Assembly (NCBI RefSeq): GCF_014268935.2
Contig: NZ_JABWRJ020000002.1
Coordinates: 984,001 to 1,048,000 of the forward strand
Origin: Pseudomonas peradeniyensis
GTDB taxonomy: Bacteria > Pseudomonadota > Gammaproteobacteria > Pseudomonadales > Pseudomonadaceae
Length of the DNA: 64,000 nt
Direction: 5' to 3'
In this document: positions 50,080 to 56,707 of the stretch, in pieces
Layout of the letters: each line of letters starts with the position of its first letter
Position numbering within the stretch: position 1 is the stretch's first letter
Program-made: the position numbers and the translations under genes
Notes under the pieces: model-generated
What the model saw: only the letters and a program-made list of their open reading frames with translations
Told to the model about the DNA's origin: nothing
The model's database searches: none

Positions 50080-51519
50080 ATGTCAATACCACGCTTGAAA
50101 ACCTACCTATCGATGTTCGCCGCCGTGCTCATGCTCGGCCAGGTGCTCAGCGCCCAGGCCGAGGAGTCCCTGCCGGACTTCACCACCTTGGTCGAGCAGG
50201 CCTCGCCGGCGGTGGTCAACATCAGTACCAAGCAGAAACTGCCGGACCGCCGCATCGCCGCCGGGCAGATGCCGGACCTCGAAGGCCTGCCGCCGATGTT
50301 CCGCGAGTTCTTCGAGCGCAACATGCCGCAGCAGCCGCGTTCGCCCCGTGGCGACCGCCAGCGCGAGGCGCAGTCGCTGGGTTCGGGCTTCATCATCTCC
50401 AGCGACGGCTATGTGCTGACCAACAACCACGTGGTGGCCGACGCCGACGAGATCATCGTCCGTCTGTCCGACCGCAGCGAACTGCAGGCCAAGCTGGTAG
50501 GCACCGACCCGCGCACCGATGTGGCCCTGCTCAAGGTCGAAGGCAAGAACCTGCCGACCGTCAAGCTGGGCGACTCGGAGAAGCTCAAGGTTGGTGAGTG
50601 GGTGCTGGCCATCGGCTCGCCGTTCGGCTTCGACCATTCGGTGACCAAAGGTATCGTCAGCGCCAAGGGCCGTACGCTGCCCAACGACACCTATGTGCCG
50701 TTCATCCAGACCGACGTGGCCATCAACCCGGGCAACTCCGGTGGTCCGCTGTTCAACATGAAGGGCGAGGTGGTGGGGATCAACTCGCAGATCTTCACCC
50801 GTTCCGGCGGCTTCATGGGCCTGTCGTTCGCCATCCCGATCGACGTGGCGATCGATGTGTCGAACCAGCTGAAGAAAGACGGCAAGGTCAGCCGCGGCTG
50901 GCTGGGCGTGGTGATCCAGGAGGTCAACAAGGACCTGGCCGAATCCTTCGGCCTGGACAAGCCGGCCGGCGCCCTGGTGGCCCAGGTCCTGGAAAACGGC
51001 CCGGCAGCCAAGGGCGGCCTGCAGGTGGGTGACGTGATCCTGAGCATGAATGGCCAGCCGATCGTCATGTCCGCCGACCTGCCGCACCTGGTTGGCAGCC
51101 TCAAGGACGGCGAGAAGGCCAAGCTGGAGATCATCCGCAACGGCAAGCGCCAGAACCTGGATGTCACCATTGGCGCTTTGCCAGAGGATGACGCCGACAT
51201 CGGCCTGGGCGCGGGTGTCGATGGCAGCGCCGAGCGCAGCAGCAACCGCCTGGGCGTATCCGTGTCCGACCTGACCGCCGAGCAGAAGAAGTCGCTGGAG
51301 CTCAAGGGCGGCGTGGTCATCAAGGAAGTCCAGGATGGTCCGGCGGCCATGATCGGCCTGCGTCCGGGTGATGTCATCAGCCACCTGAACAACCAGGCCA
51401 TCGCCTCGGCCAAGCAGTTCACCGAGATCGCCAAGGAGCTGCCGAAGAACCGTTCGGTGTCCATGCGCGTGCTGCGTCAGGGGCGTGCGAGCTTCATCAC
51501 GTTCAAGTTGGCTGAATAA
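50080..51519 (+). CDS. mucD: Periplasmic serine protease/chaperone MucD (DegP-like)
   Basis: The 479-residue HtrA protease has a signal peptide to about 27 (AQAEES), catalytic triad His117, Asp147 and Ser220 (NPGNSGGP), and two PDZ domains (about 265-355 and 385-475). It degrades misfolded envelope proteins and dampens AlgU activity. The ATG at 50080 follows GGGAG. Its last 171 bases are duplicated at 53187-53357. Confidence 0.96.
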   Translation: MSIPRLKTYLSMFAAVLMLGQVLSAQAEESLPDFTTLVEQASPAVVNISTKQKLPDRRIAAGQMPDLEGLPPMFREFFERNMPQQPRSPRGDRQREAQSLGSGFIISSDGYVLTNNHVVADADEIIVRLSDRSELQAKLVGTDPRTDVALLKVEGKNLPTVKLGDSEKLKVGEWVLAIGSPFGFDHSVTKGIVSAKGRTLPNDTYVPFIQTDVAINPGNSGGPLFNMKGEVVGINSQIFTRSGGFMGLSFAIPIDVAIDVSNQLKKDGKVSRGWLGVVIQEVNKDLAESFGLDKPAGALVAQVLENGPAAKGGLQVGDVILSMNGQPIVMSADLPHLVGSLKDGEKAKLEIIRNGKRQNLDVTIGALPEDDADIGLGAGVDGSAERSSNRLGVSVSDLTAEQKKSLELKGGVVIKEVQDGPAAMIGLRPGDVISHLNNQAIASAKQFTEIAKELPKNRSVSMRVLRQGRASFITFKLAE

Positions 51520-51536
51520 GCGGGTTGAATGGTAGG

Positions 51537-51563
51537 AAAAGGGCAGCTTTGGCTGCCCTTTTT
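51537..51563. terminator. Terminator after mucD
   Basis: AAAAGGGCAGC-TTTG-GCTGCCCTTTTT follows the mucD stop. A/T runs on both sides allow it to serve the convergent delta-60 gene too. Confidence 0.88.
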
Positions 51564-51652
51564 CATGAATATCACAAACTCCCGGGTGGAGATGGGCATT
51601 TCTTTGTGGGGCACAGCCGATCCCGATTTCATCTATGGGTGCTCATGGGCCA

Positions 51653-52975
51653 TCAGATCCTATTTTTCACAAGGCGAATAACATAGCCAATATATCCACC
51701 GGTACTTCTGAGGTTGGCGGCAAGCACTATTTTCTCATCCTGTTCTAATGCAATCATCGCATTGATTGTATCTTTTATCTCATCCGGAAGAGGGGTAAGA
51801 GGATCAGCCGTTCCATTCTTTTCATAACGCTGCAAGTGCGAGGTTCCGAAGGAACCGGCGCCAAATAAGAGTGCTCCGTGATCCTGCTCGATGACCCCTG
51901 TCTTCCATTCGACTCCGTCGTTTTCGCGTTCTGTAATCTGCGGATTGCCAGCGTTGAAATGTTCGTCTCGCTGCCCCGTGATCAAAAGTTGCCAGGCCCA
52001 GCCGTCCAATTTGACGGTATTCGGTTTATCGGTCTGCTCGAATCGACGACTGCCGGTGGCCAGTATTTCATCCGTGTTGCGAATGCACAGCTGTTGTACT
52101 CTCGTTTTATATTGCGTCGCGTGTTTGGATTCACGGTCGATCTGGAATGTAAGGGTTCCATCTTTGCCAAAGGTAGTGTCCAGCTCTCCGTTAGTCTGAT
52201 AGCGTGCAATAAAACCACTTTCACTATTCTCATTGGACAGGTAGCCGCAGATCAGCAGCGCGTTGTTGCTGACGGCTAGCCCGGTCAGCGTGACGTTTCC
52301 GCCTGTATGGGTGATCTCTATAAAAGACAACTCGCCGAATCCCGGTTCGCCGTTGAAACCTTGGCGGTAGAGGCGAGGCGGGATTCCTTGGGTATCAAAG
52401 TTTGCAGTTGCAATCAGGTGGTTGTCGTGTACAAGAAGGCTTGATCGGCCCTCCTGTAAACGAAGACCCTGTTCAGCTTCTTTTTCCCATCCTGGACGCG
52501 CCACCTGCAAACTCGAGTTGGTTGGCTGGGGAAGGTAATACGGGGTTGGGTCTATTGTTGCATCCTGGTCAAATTTGGCGATGAGAACGCTTTTGGGAGC
52601 GTCTCTGTGCTCACTGCTCCAGCCGAGCATCCAGATTGACGAGCCGTCCTTGCCATCTATGGCAATTGATACACAGCCAGAGTCTGACGCCTGGCCATGG
52701 TTGCTGCTGGGATCGAATAGCCCGAATACGATGCCTTTGTTTCCCGGCTTACCGAAAGTCGTGTCAATGCTCCCGTCGTTGTCAAAGCGAGTGAGTGCGT
52801 AATAGTGGGTAAGCGAGCCATCGCCGTTGATTTTTTCTGTCACGGCGGCTGCCAGTAATTTTTTACCTTGGTGTGTGAGATCGATGACATGTCGGTCAGT
52901 AGAATTGTCATACATAGGGAGTTGCGCCAGTCCGCTCCCATTGAATTCAGTGTCTAACACATAGGATGTTGCCAT
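51653..52975 (-). CDS. Delta-60-like repeat protein A (accessory)
   Basis: The 440-residue protein has recurring segments of the delta-60 type, for example SIDTTFGKPGNKGIVF near 70 and ELDTTFGKDGTLTFQID near 265, suggesting a beta-propeller-like architecture. There is no signal peptide or membrane helix. It is a paralogue of the gene at 53411-54730, sharing order and motifs (PPRLYR, GFGE/GFGD, VTLTGLA/VTITGLA, GVEWKT). GC content is visibly lower than in the flanking mucD and lepA. GAGG precedes the ATG. Function unknown. Confidence 0.72.
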   Translation of the reverse strand: MATSYVLDTEFNGSGLAQLPMYDNSTDRHVIDLTHQGKKLLAAAVTEKINGDGSLTHYYALTRFDNDGSIDTTFGKPGNKGIVFGLFDPSSNHGQASDSGCVSIAIDGKDGSSIWMLGWSSEHRDAPKSVLIAKFDQDATIDPTPYYLPQPTNSSLQVARPGWEKEAEQGLRLQEGRSSLLVHDNHLIATANFDTQGIPPRLYRQGFNGEPGFGELSFIEITHTGGNVTLTGLAVSNNALLICGYLSNENSESGFIARYQTNGELDTTFGKDGTLTFQIDRESKHATQYKTRVQQLCIRNTDEILATGSRRFEQTDKPNTVKLDGWAWQLLITGQRDEHFNAGNPQITERENDGVEWKTGVIEQDHGALLFGAGSFGTSHLQRYEKNGTADPLTPLPDEIKDTINAMIALEQDEKIVLAANLRSTGGYIGYVIRLVKNRI

Positions 52976-53032
52976 TGTCCTTGCCTCAAGTGTGTGTAGG
53001 TTTTCAACCTATACTCGCCCCCGTCACCAGGG

Positions 53033-53091
53033 TACTGGCAAAAATATCAGGTCACCTCCTGGCTCACCCAGGCACCGAGCGGGCATGGCGA
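53033..53091. repeat. Upstream repeat, copy A
   Basis: These 59 bp match 54772-54830 with four mismatches. Each copy lies about 40-60 bases upstream of a delta-60 gene. The centre AGGTCACCT (53049-53057) is palindromic and becomes AGGTAACCT in copy B, so the palindrome is kept while its middle base changed. It probably contains the shared promoter or operator. Confidence 0.75.
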
Positions 53092-53131
53092 TGTATCAGC
53101 AAGAATGACGTCGATCTCTCCTCCGCTCTGG

Positions 53132-53357
53132 GGCGATGGCAGCGCGAACGCAGCAGCAACGCCTGGGGCTGCCTGTGTCGGCAGCCATGATCGGCCTGCG
53201 TCCGGGTGATGTCATCAGCCACCTGAACAACCAGGCCATCGCCTGGACCAAGTAGTTCACCGAGATCGCCAAGGAACTGCCGAAGAACCGTTCGGTGTCC
53301 ATGCGCGTGCTGCGTCAAGGGCGTGCGAGCTTCATCACGTTCAAGTTGGCGGAGTGA
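53132..53357 (+). pseudogene. Broken copy of the mucD 3' end
   Basis: Bases 53187-53357 align without gaps with the last 171 bases of mucD (51349-51519) with eight differences. Bases 53132-53186 match an earlier mucD stretch with small indels and an internal deletion. An in-frame TAG at 53253 disrupts it. Five of the eight differences are synonymous, including TAA to TGA at the stop, so the fragment likely came from another strain's functional mucD rather than from decay of this one. Confidence 0.85.
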
Positions 53358-53366
53358 TTGTGGAGT

Positions 53367-53398
53367 AAAAAAAGCCGACGCAATGCGTCGGCTTTTTT
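53367..53398. terminator. Bidirectional terminator between mucD fragment and delta-60 gene B
   Basis: AAAAAAGCCGACGC and GCGTCGGCTTTTTT form a near-perfect stem with T-runs in both directions, 13 bases past the stop of gene B. The sequence differs from the terminator after intact mucD, supporting a separate origin. Confidence 0.88.
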
Positions 53399-53410
53399 AT
53401 TTAAGTGGAC

Positions 53411-54730
53411 TTATGCTTTCCGGAAGCTACTCAAGCTGCCTGCGAACCCTTTGTCGGTGAAAGTGTTGGTTGCAATGATAATGTCCTGGTCGCGCTGAAT
53501 TGAGAGCAGTGCATTTTCAGTCCAGGGGACTTCAAGGTAAGTAAGTGGTAGTTGAGTACCGTCCAGTCCATAACGACGTGCACAAAAGTCACCGTACTCG
53601 CTCCGTCCCCAAGCTATAATGCCATCGTTGTCAGCGGTGACTGTTTTCCACTCGACGCCAAATGGGTTGCCGGCTTCATCGGTGAGGTTGTCGATAACCG
53701 CTTTTCCCTCATTGAATCCCGGATCTGCCGCGCCATTCTGCAAGTACTGCTGGATCCATCCAGCATCAGGGTATTCATCGATCTCTCGTAGTGCCCCGGC
53801 TACCAGAATCTTCCCGTTTGGAAGAAGGGGCATGTGCCGAATTCTAGTTTTGAAATGTTCAATCTGAAACGTAACGAAGCCTGAAACGCCGAACTTTTTA
53901 TCCAGCGTCCCATCGGTCAGGTAGCGTGCAATGAATGCAGATTGGCTAACCCCTTTGGTAACGTACCCGCTCACCAGAAGCCCCTGGGTGCTTGCTGCCA
54001 GACCGGTGATCGTTACAGGTCCAGCGGGGTGTTCGATTTCTATTTGATCGCGTGAGTCGCCGAAACCCGGCCGACCGTCAAGGGTGAGTCGATACAGACG
54101 CGGTGGATAGTGGCGGCGTGTTTTCTGGCGTCGTGCGACCGAAGGCGAACGCTCGATGAATCTTTCGAAGTTCACCGCGGCAACAAGATGGTTCTGATCA
54201 ACCAGTAAACGAGAAAAGATCGGTCGTTCAGTGCGGCCTTCAGAAGATCTTATTGACGAGCCCTCCGGAAGAGAGAGACGTTGAACGTTACGGAGTGAAG
54301 CGGCGTCACGGTCGAGTTCTGCCAGGACGGGTAATCTGCGCGAAAATTGTTCCTCAGCAAGCCATCCCAGCACCCAGATGGAGTTGTCAGAAACCGCAAC
54401 GGCTTCGCTGGAAGAGTGAAAAATATTCTCCTCGAATTTGCCGAATGCATGACCTTGTGTCTCTTCCTGGTGGAGTATGCTGCTTGAGGGTAGTGAGGAA
54501 GGCTTACCAAAACCGAAATCCGGAACGCCTCGGCTGCTGAAACGAGCAAGGGCGAAGTAGTGTTCATCTGTTATGCCGGAGATCGACAGTGCCGAAACGA
54601 TGATGTCCTGCCCTTGTAGGGCAACATCTGTTACGTGACGATAGTCGGATACGAAGTTGGGGAGTAAAGCAATTCCGTTATTGCCGAATTTTCTATTGAG
54701 CTCGCCGAAGGCCATGGCAATCGTCTCCAT
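53411..54730 (-). CDS. Delta-60-like repeat protein B (accessory)
   Basis: The 439-residue paralogue of gene A has delta-60-like segments such as ELNRKFGNNGIALLP at the N-terminus and TLDKKFGVSGFVTFQIE in the middle. The proteins share a scaffold but much of the surface sequence differs. The start at 54730 has GGAGG eight bases before it; an ATG at 54715 gives the N-terminus that aligns best with gene A, so either is possible. Lower GC than flanking genes. Function unknown. Confidence 0.72.
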   Translation of the reverse strand: METIAMAFGELNRKFGNNGIALLPNFVSDYRHVTDVALQGQDIIVSALSISGITDEHYFALARFSSRGVPDFGFGKPSSLPSSSILHQEETQGHAFGKFEENIFHSSSEAVAVSDNSIWVLGWLAEEQFSRRLPVLAELDRDAASLRNVQRLSLPEGSSIRSSEGRTERPIFSRLLVDQNHLVAAVNFERFIERSPSVARRQKTRRHYPPRLYRLTLDGRPGFGDSRDQIEIEHPAGPVTITGLAASTQGLLVSGYVTKGVSQSAFIARYLTDGTLDKKFGVSGFVTFQIEHFKTRIRHMPLLPNGKILVAGALREIDEYPDAGWIQQYLQNGAADPGFNEGKAVIDNLTDEAGNPFGVEWKTVTADNDGIIAWGRSEYGDFCARRYGLDGTQLPLTYLEVPWTENALLSIQRDQDIIIATNTFTDKGFAGSLSSFRKA

Positions 54731-54771
54731 GCAGGGAGCCTCCAATCTATGACCGCTCCCCCCCACCGCGA

Positions 54772-54830
54772 TACTGGCAAAAATATCAGGTAACCTCCTG
54801 CTTCACCCAGGCAACGAGCGGGCATGGCGA
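54772..54830. repeat. Upstream repeat, copy B
   Basis: This is the second copy of the 59-bp sequence at 53033-53091, upstream of delta-60 gene B and abutting the presumed lepA promoter. It contains AGGTAACCT at 54788-54796. Confidence 0.75.
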
Positions 54831-54853
54831 CGGCCCGTCGCTTGAGGTACAAT
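54825..54853 (+). promoter_or_regulatory. Candidate lepA promoter
   Basis: TACAAT at 54848-54853 is a fair -10. The segment 17 bases earlier (TGGCGA) is a weak -35. It overlaps the end of upstream repeat copy B. Confidence 0.35.
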
Positions 54854-54907
54854 TCCCGGCTATTTTTCGGCGGGCGTCCGGCTCGCAGCCTTTTCGAGTG
54901 TTGACCC

Positions 54908-56707
54908 GTGAGTGATTTGAGTCATATCCGCAATTTCTCCATCATCGCCCACATCGACCATGGCAAGTCGACGCTGGCCGACCGTTTCATCCAGATGTGC
55001 GGTGGCCTGACTGCGCGCGAAATGGAAGCTCAGGTTCTCGACTCCATGGATCTCGAGCGCGAGCGCGGTATCACCATCAAAGCCCACAGCGTCACGCTGC
55101 ACTACAAGGCTCAGGATGGTAAGACCTACCAGCTGAACTTCATCGATACCCCCGGCCACGTCGACTTCACCTATGAAGTCTCGCGCTCGCTGGCGGCGTG
55201 CGAAGGTGCGCTGCTGGTGGTCGATGCCGGTCAAGGTGTCGAGGCCCAGTCCGTGGCCAACTGCTACACCGCCATCGAGCAGGGCCTGGAAGTCATGCCC
55301 GTACTGAACAAGATGGACCTGCCCCAGGCCGACCCGGACCGCGTCAAGGACGAGATCGAGAAGATCATCGGCATCGACGCCACCGACGCCGTGGCCTGCA
55401 GCGCCAAGAGCGGCATGGGCGTCGACGAGGTACTCGAGCGCCTGGTGCAGACCATCCCCGCGCCGGAAGGCGAGATCGATGCGCCGCTGCAGGCGCTGAT
55501 CATCGACTCCTGGTTCGACAACTACCTGGGCGTGGTCTCGCTGGTGCGCGTGCGCCAGGGCCGCGTCAAGAAAGGCGACAAGATCCTGGTCAAGTCCACC
55601 GGCAAGGTGCACCTGGTCGACAGTGTCGGCGTGTTCACGCCCAAGCACACCCAGACCGCCGACCTGAAAGCCGGTGAAGTGGGCTTCATCATCGCCAGCA
55701 TCAAGGACATTCACGGCGCGCCGGTGGGTGACACCCTGACCCTGTCCAACACCCCTGAAGTCGAAGTGCTGCCAGGCTTCAAGAAGATCCAGCCGCAGGT
55801 CTACGCCGGCTTGTTCCCGGTCAGCTCCGACGACTTCGAGGATTTCCGCGACGCCCTGCAGAAGCTCACGCTGAACGACTCGTCGCTGCAGTACATGCCG
55901 GAAAGCTCCGACGCCCTGGGCTTCGGCTTCCGTTGCGGCTTCCTCGGCATGCTGCACATGGAGATCATCCAGGAGCGCCTGGAGCGCGAATACGACCTGG
56001 ACCTGATCACCACCGCGCCAAGCGTGATCTACGAGCTCGAACTCAAGACTGGCGAGACCATCACCGTCGACAACCCGTCGAAGCTGCCGGACGTCTCGGC
56101 GGTCAACGACTTCCGCGAGCCGATCGTCACCGCGACCATCCTGGTACCCCAGGAGCACCTGGGCAACGTCATCACCCTGTGCATCGAGAAGCGTGGCGTG
56201 CAGCGCGACATGCAGTTCCTCGGCAGCCAGGTGCAGGTGCGCTACGACCTGCCGATGAACGAAGTGGTGCTGGACTTCTTCGACCGCCTGAAGTCCACCA
56301 GCCGCGGCTACGCCTCGCTGGACTACCATTTCGACCGCTACCAGTCGGCCAACCTGGTCAAGCTGGACGTGCTGATCAACGGCGACAAGGTCGATGCCCT
56401 GGCGCTGATCGTGCACCGCGACAACGCCGCCTACAAAGGCCGTGCGTTGACCGAAAAGATGAAGGAACTGATTCCTCGGCAGATGTTCGATGTGGCGATC
56501 CAGGCAGCCATTGGCGGCCAGATCATCGCGCGGACAACCGTCAAGGCGCTCAGAAAGAACGTACTGGCCAAGTGCTACGGTGGTGACGTCAGCCGTAAGA
56601 AAAAGCTGCTGGAGAAGCAGAAGGCCGGTAAGAAACGCATGAAGCAGGTGGGTAACGTGGAGATTCCACAGGAAGCCTTCCTTGCCGTGCTCAGGTTGGA
56701 TAGCTAG
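54908..56707 (+). CDS. lepA: Translation factor LepA (EF-4)
   Basis: The 599-residue GTPase of the elongation-factor family has G1 AHIDHGKS at 14-21, G2/G3 in [10 protein letters not shown] and DTPGHVDF, and the LepA-specific C-terminal domain with the Lys-rich [20 protein letters not shown]. It acts on stalled or assembling ribosomes. A GTG start gives [20 protein letters not shown]. lepB follows after five bases. Confidence 0.97.

Follow-up and report, generated by a model that had tools for sequence, protein, structure and literature searches.

At Rhs and contact-dependent growth inhibition (CDI) loci, alternative versions of a gene that have diverged stand next to one another. A similar arrangement is present in Pseudomonas peradeniyensis, in a stretch of 64,000 nucleotides (assembly GCF_014268935.2, contig NZ_JABWRJ020000002.1, positions 984,001 to 1,048,000) that was analyzed as a whole and is referred to as the window; positions given below are those of the window. 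Two diverged genes, here called A and B, encode delta-60/DUF5122 beta-propeller proteins and lie between mucD and lepA in the order mucD, gene A, repeat, decayed mucD tail, gene B, repeat, and lepA. A preliminary description of this DNA, made by a model without database searches, gave this order, and every part was found at its place.

The closest described systems differ from this locus in several respects. Class II lux-box promoters, such as that of Vibrio fischeri luxI, resemble the element in front of A and B in the 20-bp CT-N12-AG box, its position approximately 43 nt before the predicted start, and a fixed -10 element. In contrast, the putida-type boxes found here are only partly palindromic, and their binder is putative. 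Among protein families, the delta-60/DUF5122 propellers (TIGR02608 and PF17164) are the nearest: A and B pass the Pfam cut-off, and the model of A is all-beta and matches propellers. However, few repeats of A and B score individually, and the subfamily at this site is far from the other delta-60 proteins of the genus. The Rhs and CDI orphan cassettes (PMC3150448) have a counterpart in the RHS-core proteins encoded behind the same promoter element in this genus. Unlike these cassettes, A and B have neither a detected toxin domain nor a long open reading frame (ORF) fit for an immunity gene, and they diverge over their whole length instead of having a common N-terminal region and variable tips. 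PpoR of Pseudomonas putida and the subgroup A LuxR solos (PMC2703642 and PMC8546723, each available in part) share their domains and gene context with a regulator encoded here. The available text of these two papers gives no box or direct targets, whereas a candidate box and candidate targets are proposed in the present study.

We propose, with a probability of approximately 0.56 for the account as a whole, that the gap between mucD and lepA serves as a site of presence/absence variation and allele exchange for one accessory DUF5122/delta-60 propeller gene with its own promoter. Recombination with another lineage would have joined two diverged alleles head to tail and left the decaying end of mucD where they meet. 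Each gene would be driven by a 20-bp lux-box-like element centered approximately 43 nt before the inferred transcription start and, as suggested by the same element heading other genes in congeners, would belong to a regulon. The activator would most likely be PpoR, a LuxR solo that would respond to acyl-homoserine lactones, and the propellers may act as fast-diversifying binding proteins that are made when other bacteria are sensed. Follow-up is better directed at the shared promoter box and the genes behind it than at the mosaic.

A lux-box-like element and the genes behind it

Each copy of the upstream repeat contains the identical 20-mer ACCTGATATTTTTGCCAGTA, which reads towards the gene, and variants of this box precede all six single-gene alleles found at the site in other genomes. 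The box of gene A (53033..53052, minus strand) lies 57 nt before its ATG, and the -10 hexamer TAGGTT (53006..53011, minus strand) begins 21 nt after the box. In front of gene B, the box (54772..54791, minus strand) is followed at 22 nt by the hexamer TAGATT (54744..54749, minus strand). The preliminary description reported a 59-bp repeat and treated it as a plain upstream repeat. A repeat is present, but its copies are 73 nt long and 88% identical (53019..53091, including the gene A box, and 54758..54830, including the gene B box, both read on the minus strand), and a promoter element present in many congeners had been overlooked. We predict that the repeat is the promoter of each gene.

A first, narrower pattern matched five sites in the strain's own genome, two of them at mucD-lepA. 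A wider pattern, TACTGNYANAANTNNYAGGY (opposite strand), was built from eight seed sites and gave 80 matches in 20 genomes including the strain's own, with at least one match in 19 of the 20 and none for the pattern read backwards. Eight of these 80 matches are the seed sites themselves, and seven of the 20 genomes were picked for an occupied site, making the sample non-random. Another 61 genomes yielded 113 matches, distributed over 35 of them (backwards control, 6), which brings the located matches to 193 in 54 of 81 genomes.

The position of the box relative to the genes is regular. Start codons, which were picked by rule and have no control, follow at 40-80 nt in 61 of 80 cases, with a mode of 58. 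In 31 of 72 non-redundant promoters, a -10 element of the TAnnnT type starts precisely 21 nt past the box, and in eight it starts at 22 nt, against 2.6 at the fullest position of a shuffled control. The class II position, with a -10 distance of 21 or 22 nt, thus applies to 39 of the 72, including A (21) and B (22), the transcription starts themselves being inferred. Because of this fixed spacing, the center of the box would fall near -43, which is where LuxR-type class II activators bind. Both boxes at the locus fit the 20-bp CT-N12-AG frame; since this frame is part of the pattern, its fit is a free test only in the seed sites and in a set of genes fetched by protein similarity. In that pattern-free set, taken from elsewhere in the genus, the box is recognizable in 11 of 22 delta-60 genes when up to four mismatches are allowed (shuffles gave 0.2 on average) and is lacking by this measure in the remaining 11; many of the 22 are mutually related and, thus, not independent. 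The 22 were drawn from 29 inspected loci after seven had been left out (the occupied-site loci L003-L007 and L012, and L015, in which the ORF was wrong), and the core differs in L031, one of the boxes counted among the 11.

The 80 proteins encoded downstream include 13 with an RHS core, 12 delta-60 proteins (eight at the seed sites), seven matching acyl carrier protein models, and two each of the thioredoxin, acyl-CoA-binding protein, and GbpA-like types. Single matches are to RNase T2, subtilase, reprolysin-like and trypsin-like proteases, and an elongation factor Tu GTP-binding domain, and many of the proteins match no family; some of the 80 ORFs will be wrong due to the rule-picked start codons. 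We read this set as a putative LuxR-type regulon of accessory genes with PpoR as the likeliest activator. A broader proposal, to which we give rather less than even odds, is a genus-wide regulon of swappable accessory genes (RHS-core, delta-60, stand-alone acyl carrier proteins, and hydrolases) under one class II lux box, which PpoR would switch in response to the acyl-homoserine lactones of neighbors. New alleles would dock behind ready-made boxes, and two of them would be stacked at mucD-lepA. If this is true, the orphan RHS-core and delta-60 genes of these bacteria have a common trigger. No description of this box or regulon was found in the literature searched, which was largely without subscription journals. 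The same literature yielded no paper on delta-60 repeats or on DUF5122 in Pseudomonas, and for the mucD-lepA intergenic region only a study of a whitefly endosymbiont.

Several further observations were made on the box and its genes. LexA was considered as the binder and set aside: the putida-type box lacks the CTGT-N8-ACAG seen in some congeners, and the gene set is not SOS-like. Genomes with a more distant LepA (G123, G253, G010, G111, G172, and others) have a different form of the box, approximately TACTGTCAGAAMTNACAGGT; the half-site preference may have co-evolved with the regulator. In genome G188 (L163:1741-2373), a box heads a 211-amino-acid (aa) protein, the sole Pfam match of which is the elongation factor Tu GTP-binding domain. 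In the strain's own genome (contig C1, at approximately 767 kb), two stand-alone acyl carrier protein-like genes (L116:1185-1442 and L116:1592-1828), one of them Pfam-confirmed, each have their own box and adjoin an acyl-CoA ligase-like gene identified by eye.

PpoR as the candidate activator

The strain's own genome encodes three proteins with an Autoind_bind domain. One of these is a PpoR-type LuxR solo with Autoind_bind and GerE domains (L195:5415-6119; C3:913417-914118 in the strain's own genome, minus strand), an identity that is based on domain content and neighbors and not on a comparison with the published protein. Its gene adjoins ferredoxin-NADP reductase-like, MscL-like, and methyltransferase-like ORFs (named by eye). 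The same context of ferredoxin-NADP reductase and methyltransferase is described for subgroup A solos in the available part of PMC8546723.

A PpoR-type match at 1e-25 or better was present in 49 of 53 box-positive genomes and in eight of 27 box-negative genomes (Fisher, 1e-8, uncorrected for kinship), leaving four genomes with the box only and 19 with neither; 12 of the 80 are discordant in all. The threshold falls in an empty range of 2.6e-27 to 3.4e-14. All seven genomes with an occupied site have a PpoR-type protein. Two of the 49 genes are imperfect (an internal stop in G189 and a split between two frames in G065). The other two LuxR solos of the strain's own genome occur in only 10 and 9 of the 80 genomes and in none of the other six occupied-site genomes. 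They were set aside as the regulator because most box-positive genomes would be left unexplained.

A number of results weigh against PpoR. The association with the box is uncorrected for kinship, and it weakens under a stricter cut of 1e-45 (39 of 53 box-positive and 5 of 27 box-negative genomes, or 39/14/5/22; Fisher, 3e-6, likewise uncorrected), for which reason our confidence was slightly lowered. Ten of the box-positive genomes are counted as having PpoR solely on weaker matches (1e-27 to 1e-43), and the matched proteins may be LuxR proteins of another kind. The two other LuxR solos also occur only in box-positive genomes (10/10 and 9/9; Fisher, 0.01 and 0.02). Since no LuxI was found in the strain's own genome, we consider the acyl-homoserine lactones to probably come from neighbors; however, the control genomes gave no LuxI match either. 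In addition, the available main text of a deletion study of PplR, a relative, does not name Rhs or acyl carrier proteins (PMC11543582).

Other points against PpoR would equally fit a box that is real and bound by another LuxR protein or by another family, in which case the regulon would not be a PpoR response to acyl-homoserine lactones. Four genomes have the box without a PpoR-type protein, including G194 with three boxes, and eight have a PpoR-type protein without the box. The dyad is only partial in the putida-type box. The PpoR overexpression array in the available part of PMC2703642 names 62 genes, none of these gene types, with seven being hypothetical. The accessory genes may have been off the array, the list of which follows KT2440 gene names. 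Binding by a regulator other than PpoR is opposed by the 20-bp CT-N12-AG frame, the class II position, and the near palindrome CTGTCA-N4-TGACAG that certain congeners have, G194 among them. We regard another binder as a serious, though minority, possibility and retain PpoR as the likeliest activator.

In the available text of PMC8546723, none of the flanking genes tested is reported to have promoter activity that depends on a PpoR-type solo, and the mechanism of this subgroup is called unknown. With a box of fixed geometry, 193 matches, and a candidate regulator, the direct targets of a widespread LuxR solo become testable.

Two side observations concern the receptor. In G194, the three boxes are near-palindromic, and a relative of another LuxR solo of the strain's own genome is present; a second regulator may read the same box there. 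The PpoR-type solo is 61% identical to that of G173 although the MucD proteins are 99.6% identical, and the receptor itself appears to undergo exchange or rapid evolution.

The mucD-lepA site and the origin of the tandem

The site is bordered on the left by an intact mucD (50080..51519, plus strand, 479 aa) and on the right by lepA (54908..56707, plus strand). Gene A (51653..52975, minus strand) encodes 440 aa, and gene B (53411..54715, minus strand) encodes 434 or 439 aa depending on the start codon (434 aa from the ATG at 54715); alternative starts of gene B are an ATG at 54730 and a GTG at 54766, and the reference used in searches began one codon early, at 54718. G+C contents are 51 and 52% over the two genes, 58% in the stretch between them, and 65% in the window.

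The survey of this interval proposed in the preliminary description was performed on DNA upstream of lepA from 80 of 298 genomes, mainly those with the most similar LepA and, thus, not a random sample. mucD was not found next to lepA in 12 stretches, two of which are cut by contig ends. The other 68 congeners have mucD immediately in front of lepA. In 62 of them, the gap measures 137-328 nt and contains no delta-60 gene; six (L058, L085, L088, L091, L098, and L100) have one minus-strand delta-60 gene in a gap of 1455-1533 nt; none has two. The interval is, therefore, not invariant. L085 and L058 are 93.9% identical in mucD and 32% in the site protein, whereas the values for L085 and L088 are 95.0 and 91%. 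The site alleles seem to have been swapped in other genomes too, as judged from these identities. This site shows a route by which alternative alleles of one gene can accumulate.

The stretch between A and B contains a decayed 3' remnant of mucD (about 53097..53357, plus strand). Its 3' part (53179-53357) is approximately 95-96% identical to the local mucD (175 nt from 53179 at 96%). Over the 5' part (approximately 53097-53178), the match to mucD 51182-51266 is badly eroded and interrupted by single-base indels (local score, 75.6; maximum of 52 in 200 shuffles), and approximately 75 nt of mucD are missing inside the remnant. The fragment noted in the preliminary description is real; however, it reaches further 5', and the indels and internal deletion, which make this tail a relic, had been overlooked. 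Over the 59 codons to the stop (177 nt), we counted nine differences from the local mucD, six synonymous (one from stop to stop) and three nonsynonymous, one of which is a premature in-frame stop. These numbers correct the earlier count (eight differences in 171 positions, five synonymous including the stop). The synonymous excess of 6/9 has P values of 0.007, 0.013, 0.025, and 0.030 against neutral simulations with four transition biases, and, thus, part of the divergence probably arose while this mucD allele was functional. The premature stop and indels are later.

The preliminary description had concluded that the fragment was under selection in a donor of another lineage. The synonymous excess fits a functional past, whereas a recognizably foreign donor was not supported. 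When compared with the strain's own and 68 other mucD genes (L099 gave no match), the remnant was closest to the strain's own (7 mismatches in 175 nt), followed by 10 in 173. A distant mucD donor was rejected because none of the 68 was closer, although the margin is small; the affinity of the fragment is with this lineage or one close to it. Three of the nine differences are common to one of the eight nearest relatives, six occur in none of the eight, and two are absent from all 46 close relatives. Donor and host would, from these comparisons, be close relatives.

Proteins A and B are 38% identical, their leaders 86% over 74 nt, and the mucD tails 95%; other pairwise leader identities were not used because the aligned lengths ranged from 8 to 74 nt. 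The contrast between 38% in the proteins and 95% in the tails most likely reflects recombination between diverged alleles and not duplication in place. Entry of a donor segment beside an existing gene, as earlier suggested, is supported to the extent that the locus is a mosaic made by recombination, but not in the claim of a recognizably foreign tail. The mosaic is real but modest, and either unit, that of A or that of B, may be the one added.

Had mucD tail, gene, and leader been duplicated in tandem and A and B then diverged rapidly in place, this would explain why the two have the same order and leader and are more closely related to one another than to any other protein compared (support 96/96). 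Site proteins can evolve fast, as in L098 and L100 (46% identical, against 92% in mucD), and gene conversion by the intact mucD could have kept the tail similar, with the 5' part of the remnant being far more decayed. However, A and B are approximately two changes per site apart, against nine differences in 177 nt of the relic tail. The hairpins with T-runs behind the two mucD ends, assigned by eye, also differ: the hairpin after the intact mucD (51540..51563) is of a type common in many empty-site congeners, whereas that after the remnant (53367..53399) resembles those of the occupied sites L098 and L100. We consider this duplication to be unlikely. That the two genes and the repeat form a mobile cassette array with a recombinase of its own is very improbable. 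Variable occupancy at one chromosomal site and the low G+C content would suit it; however, no recombinase is encoded among the long ORFs (short ORFs were not scanned), the insert having no long non-overlapping ORFs besides A and B; the inverted repeats detected all lie away from its borders; and occupied genomes do not agree in their border sequences. Recombination between diverged alleles thus remains our preferred origin of the tandem.

The stronger decay of the 5' part of the remnant (53097-53178) than of its 3' part is not explained by a single age. Later gene conversion of the remnant by the intact mucD is possible and would weaken the argument from synonymous changes. A low identity in the 5' two thirds of mucD of L041 was ignored as a likely artefact of ungapped comparison, the MucD protein being 97% identical.

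The propeller proteins

The wide divergence of two delta-60 proteins described earlier was confirmed, and both belong to DUF5122. The two proteins score 42.9 and 32.8 bits with PF17164 (gathering cut-off, 27) and 59.3 and 69.5 bits with the NCBIfam model TIGR02608 (delta_60_rpt), which is significant but under the curated cut-off of 76.5. The structure model of the gene A protein is nearly all beta, with a predicted local distance difference test (pLDDT) value of 78 and a predicted template modeling score (pTM) of 0.83. A fold search with this model gave many weak, generic propeller matches, the best template modeling (TM) scores (query) being 0.59-0.62, to CylK. The model and fold matches indicate no catalytic family. 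Assigning a function from the fold matches was set aside because only generic propellers were found, which counts against the binding role proposed above.

No toxin domain was found in A or B, only DUF5122/delta-60 (the defense library was not scanned), and the insert has no further long ORF for an immunity gene (short ORFs were not scanned). We tentatively regard fast-diversifying binding proteins, made on sensing other bacteria, as the most likely role of the propellers. That they bind in contact with other cells is a guess from the company of the genes and the speed of change, and we consider it doubtful.

A search of named-species genome contigs gave no relative of gene A, and a search of the strain's own genome with protein A matched only A itself and B. 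In a tree of the proteins compared, A and B are sisters on branches of approximately one change per site each. A profile of the site subfamily counted four matches in the strain's own genome, with only A and B among the matches listed. It was built from the eight site proteins, and their high scores arise by construction, but the gap below them does not: the subfamily is present in seven of 398 genomes, and its eight members score 9e-173 to 6e-149, with 3.6e-66 for the protein that follows.

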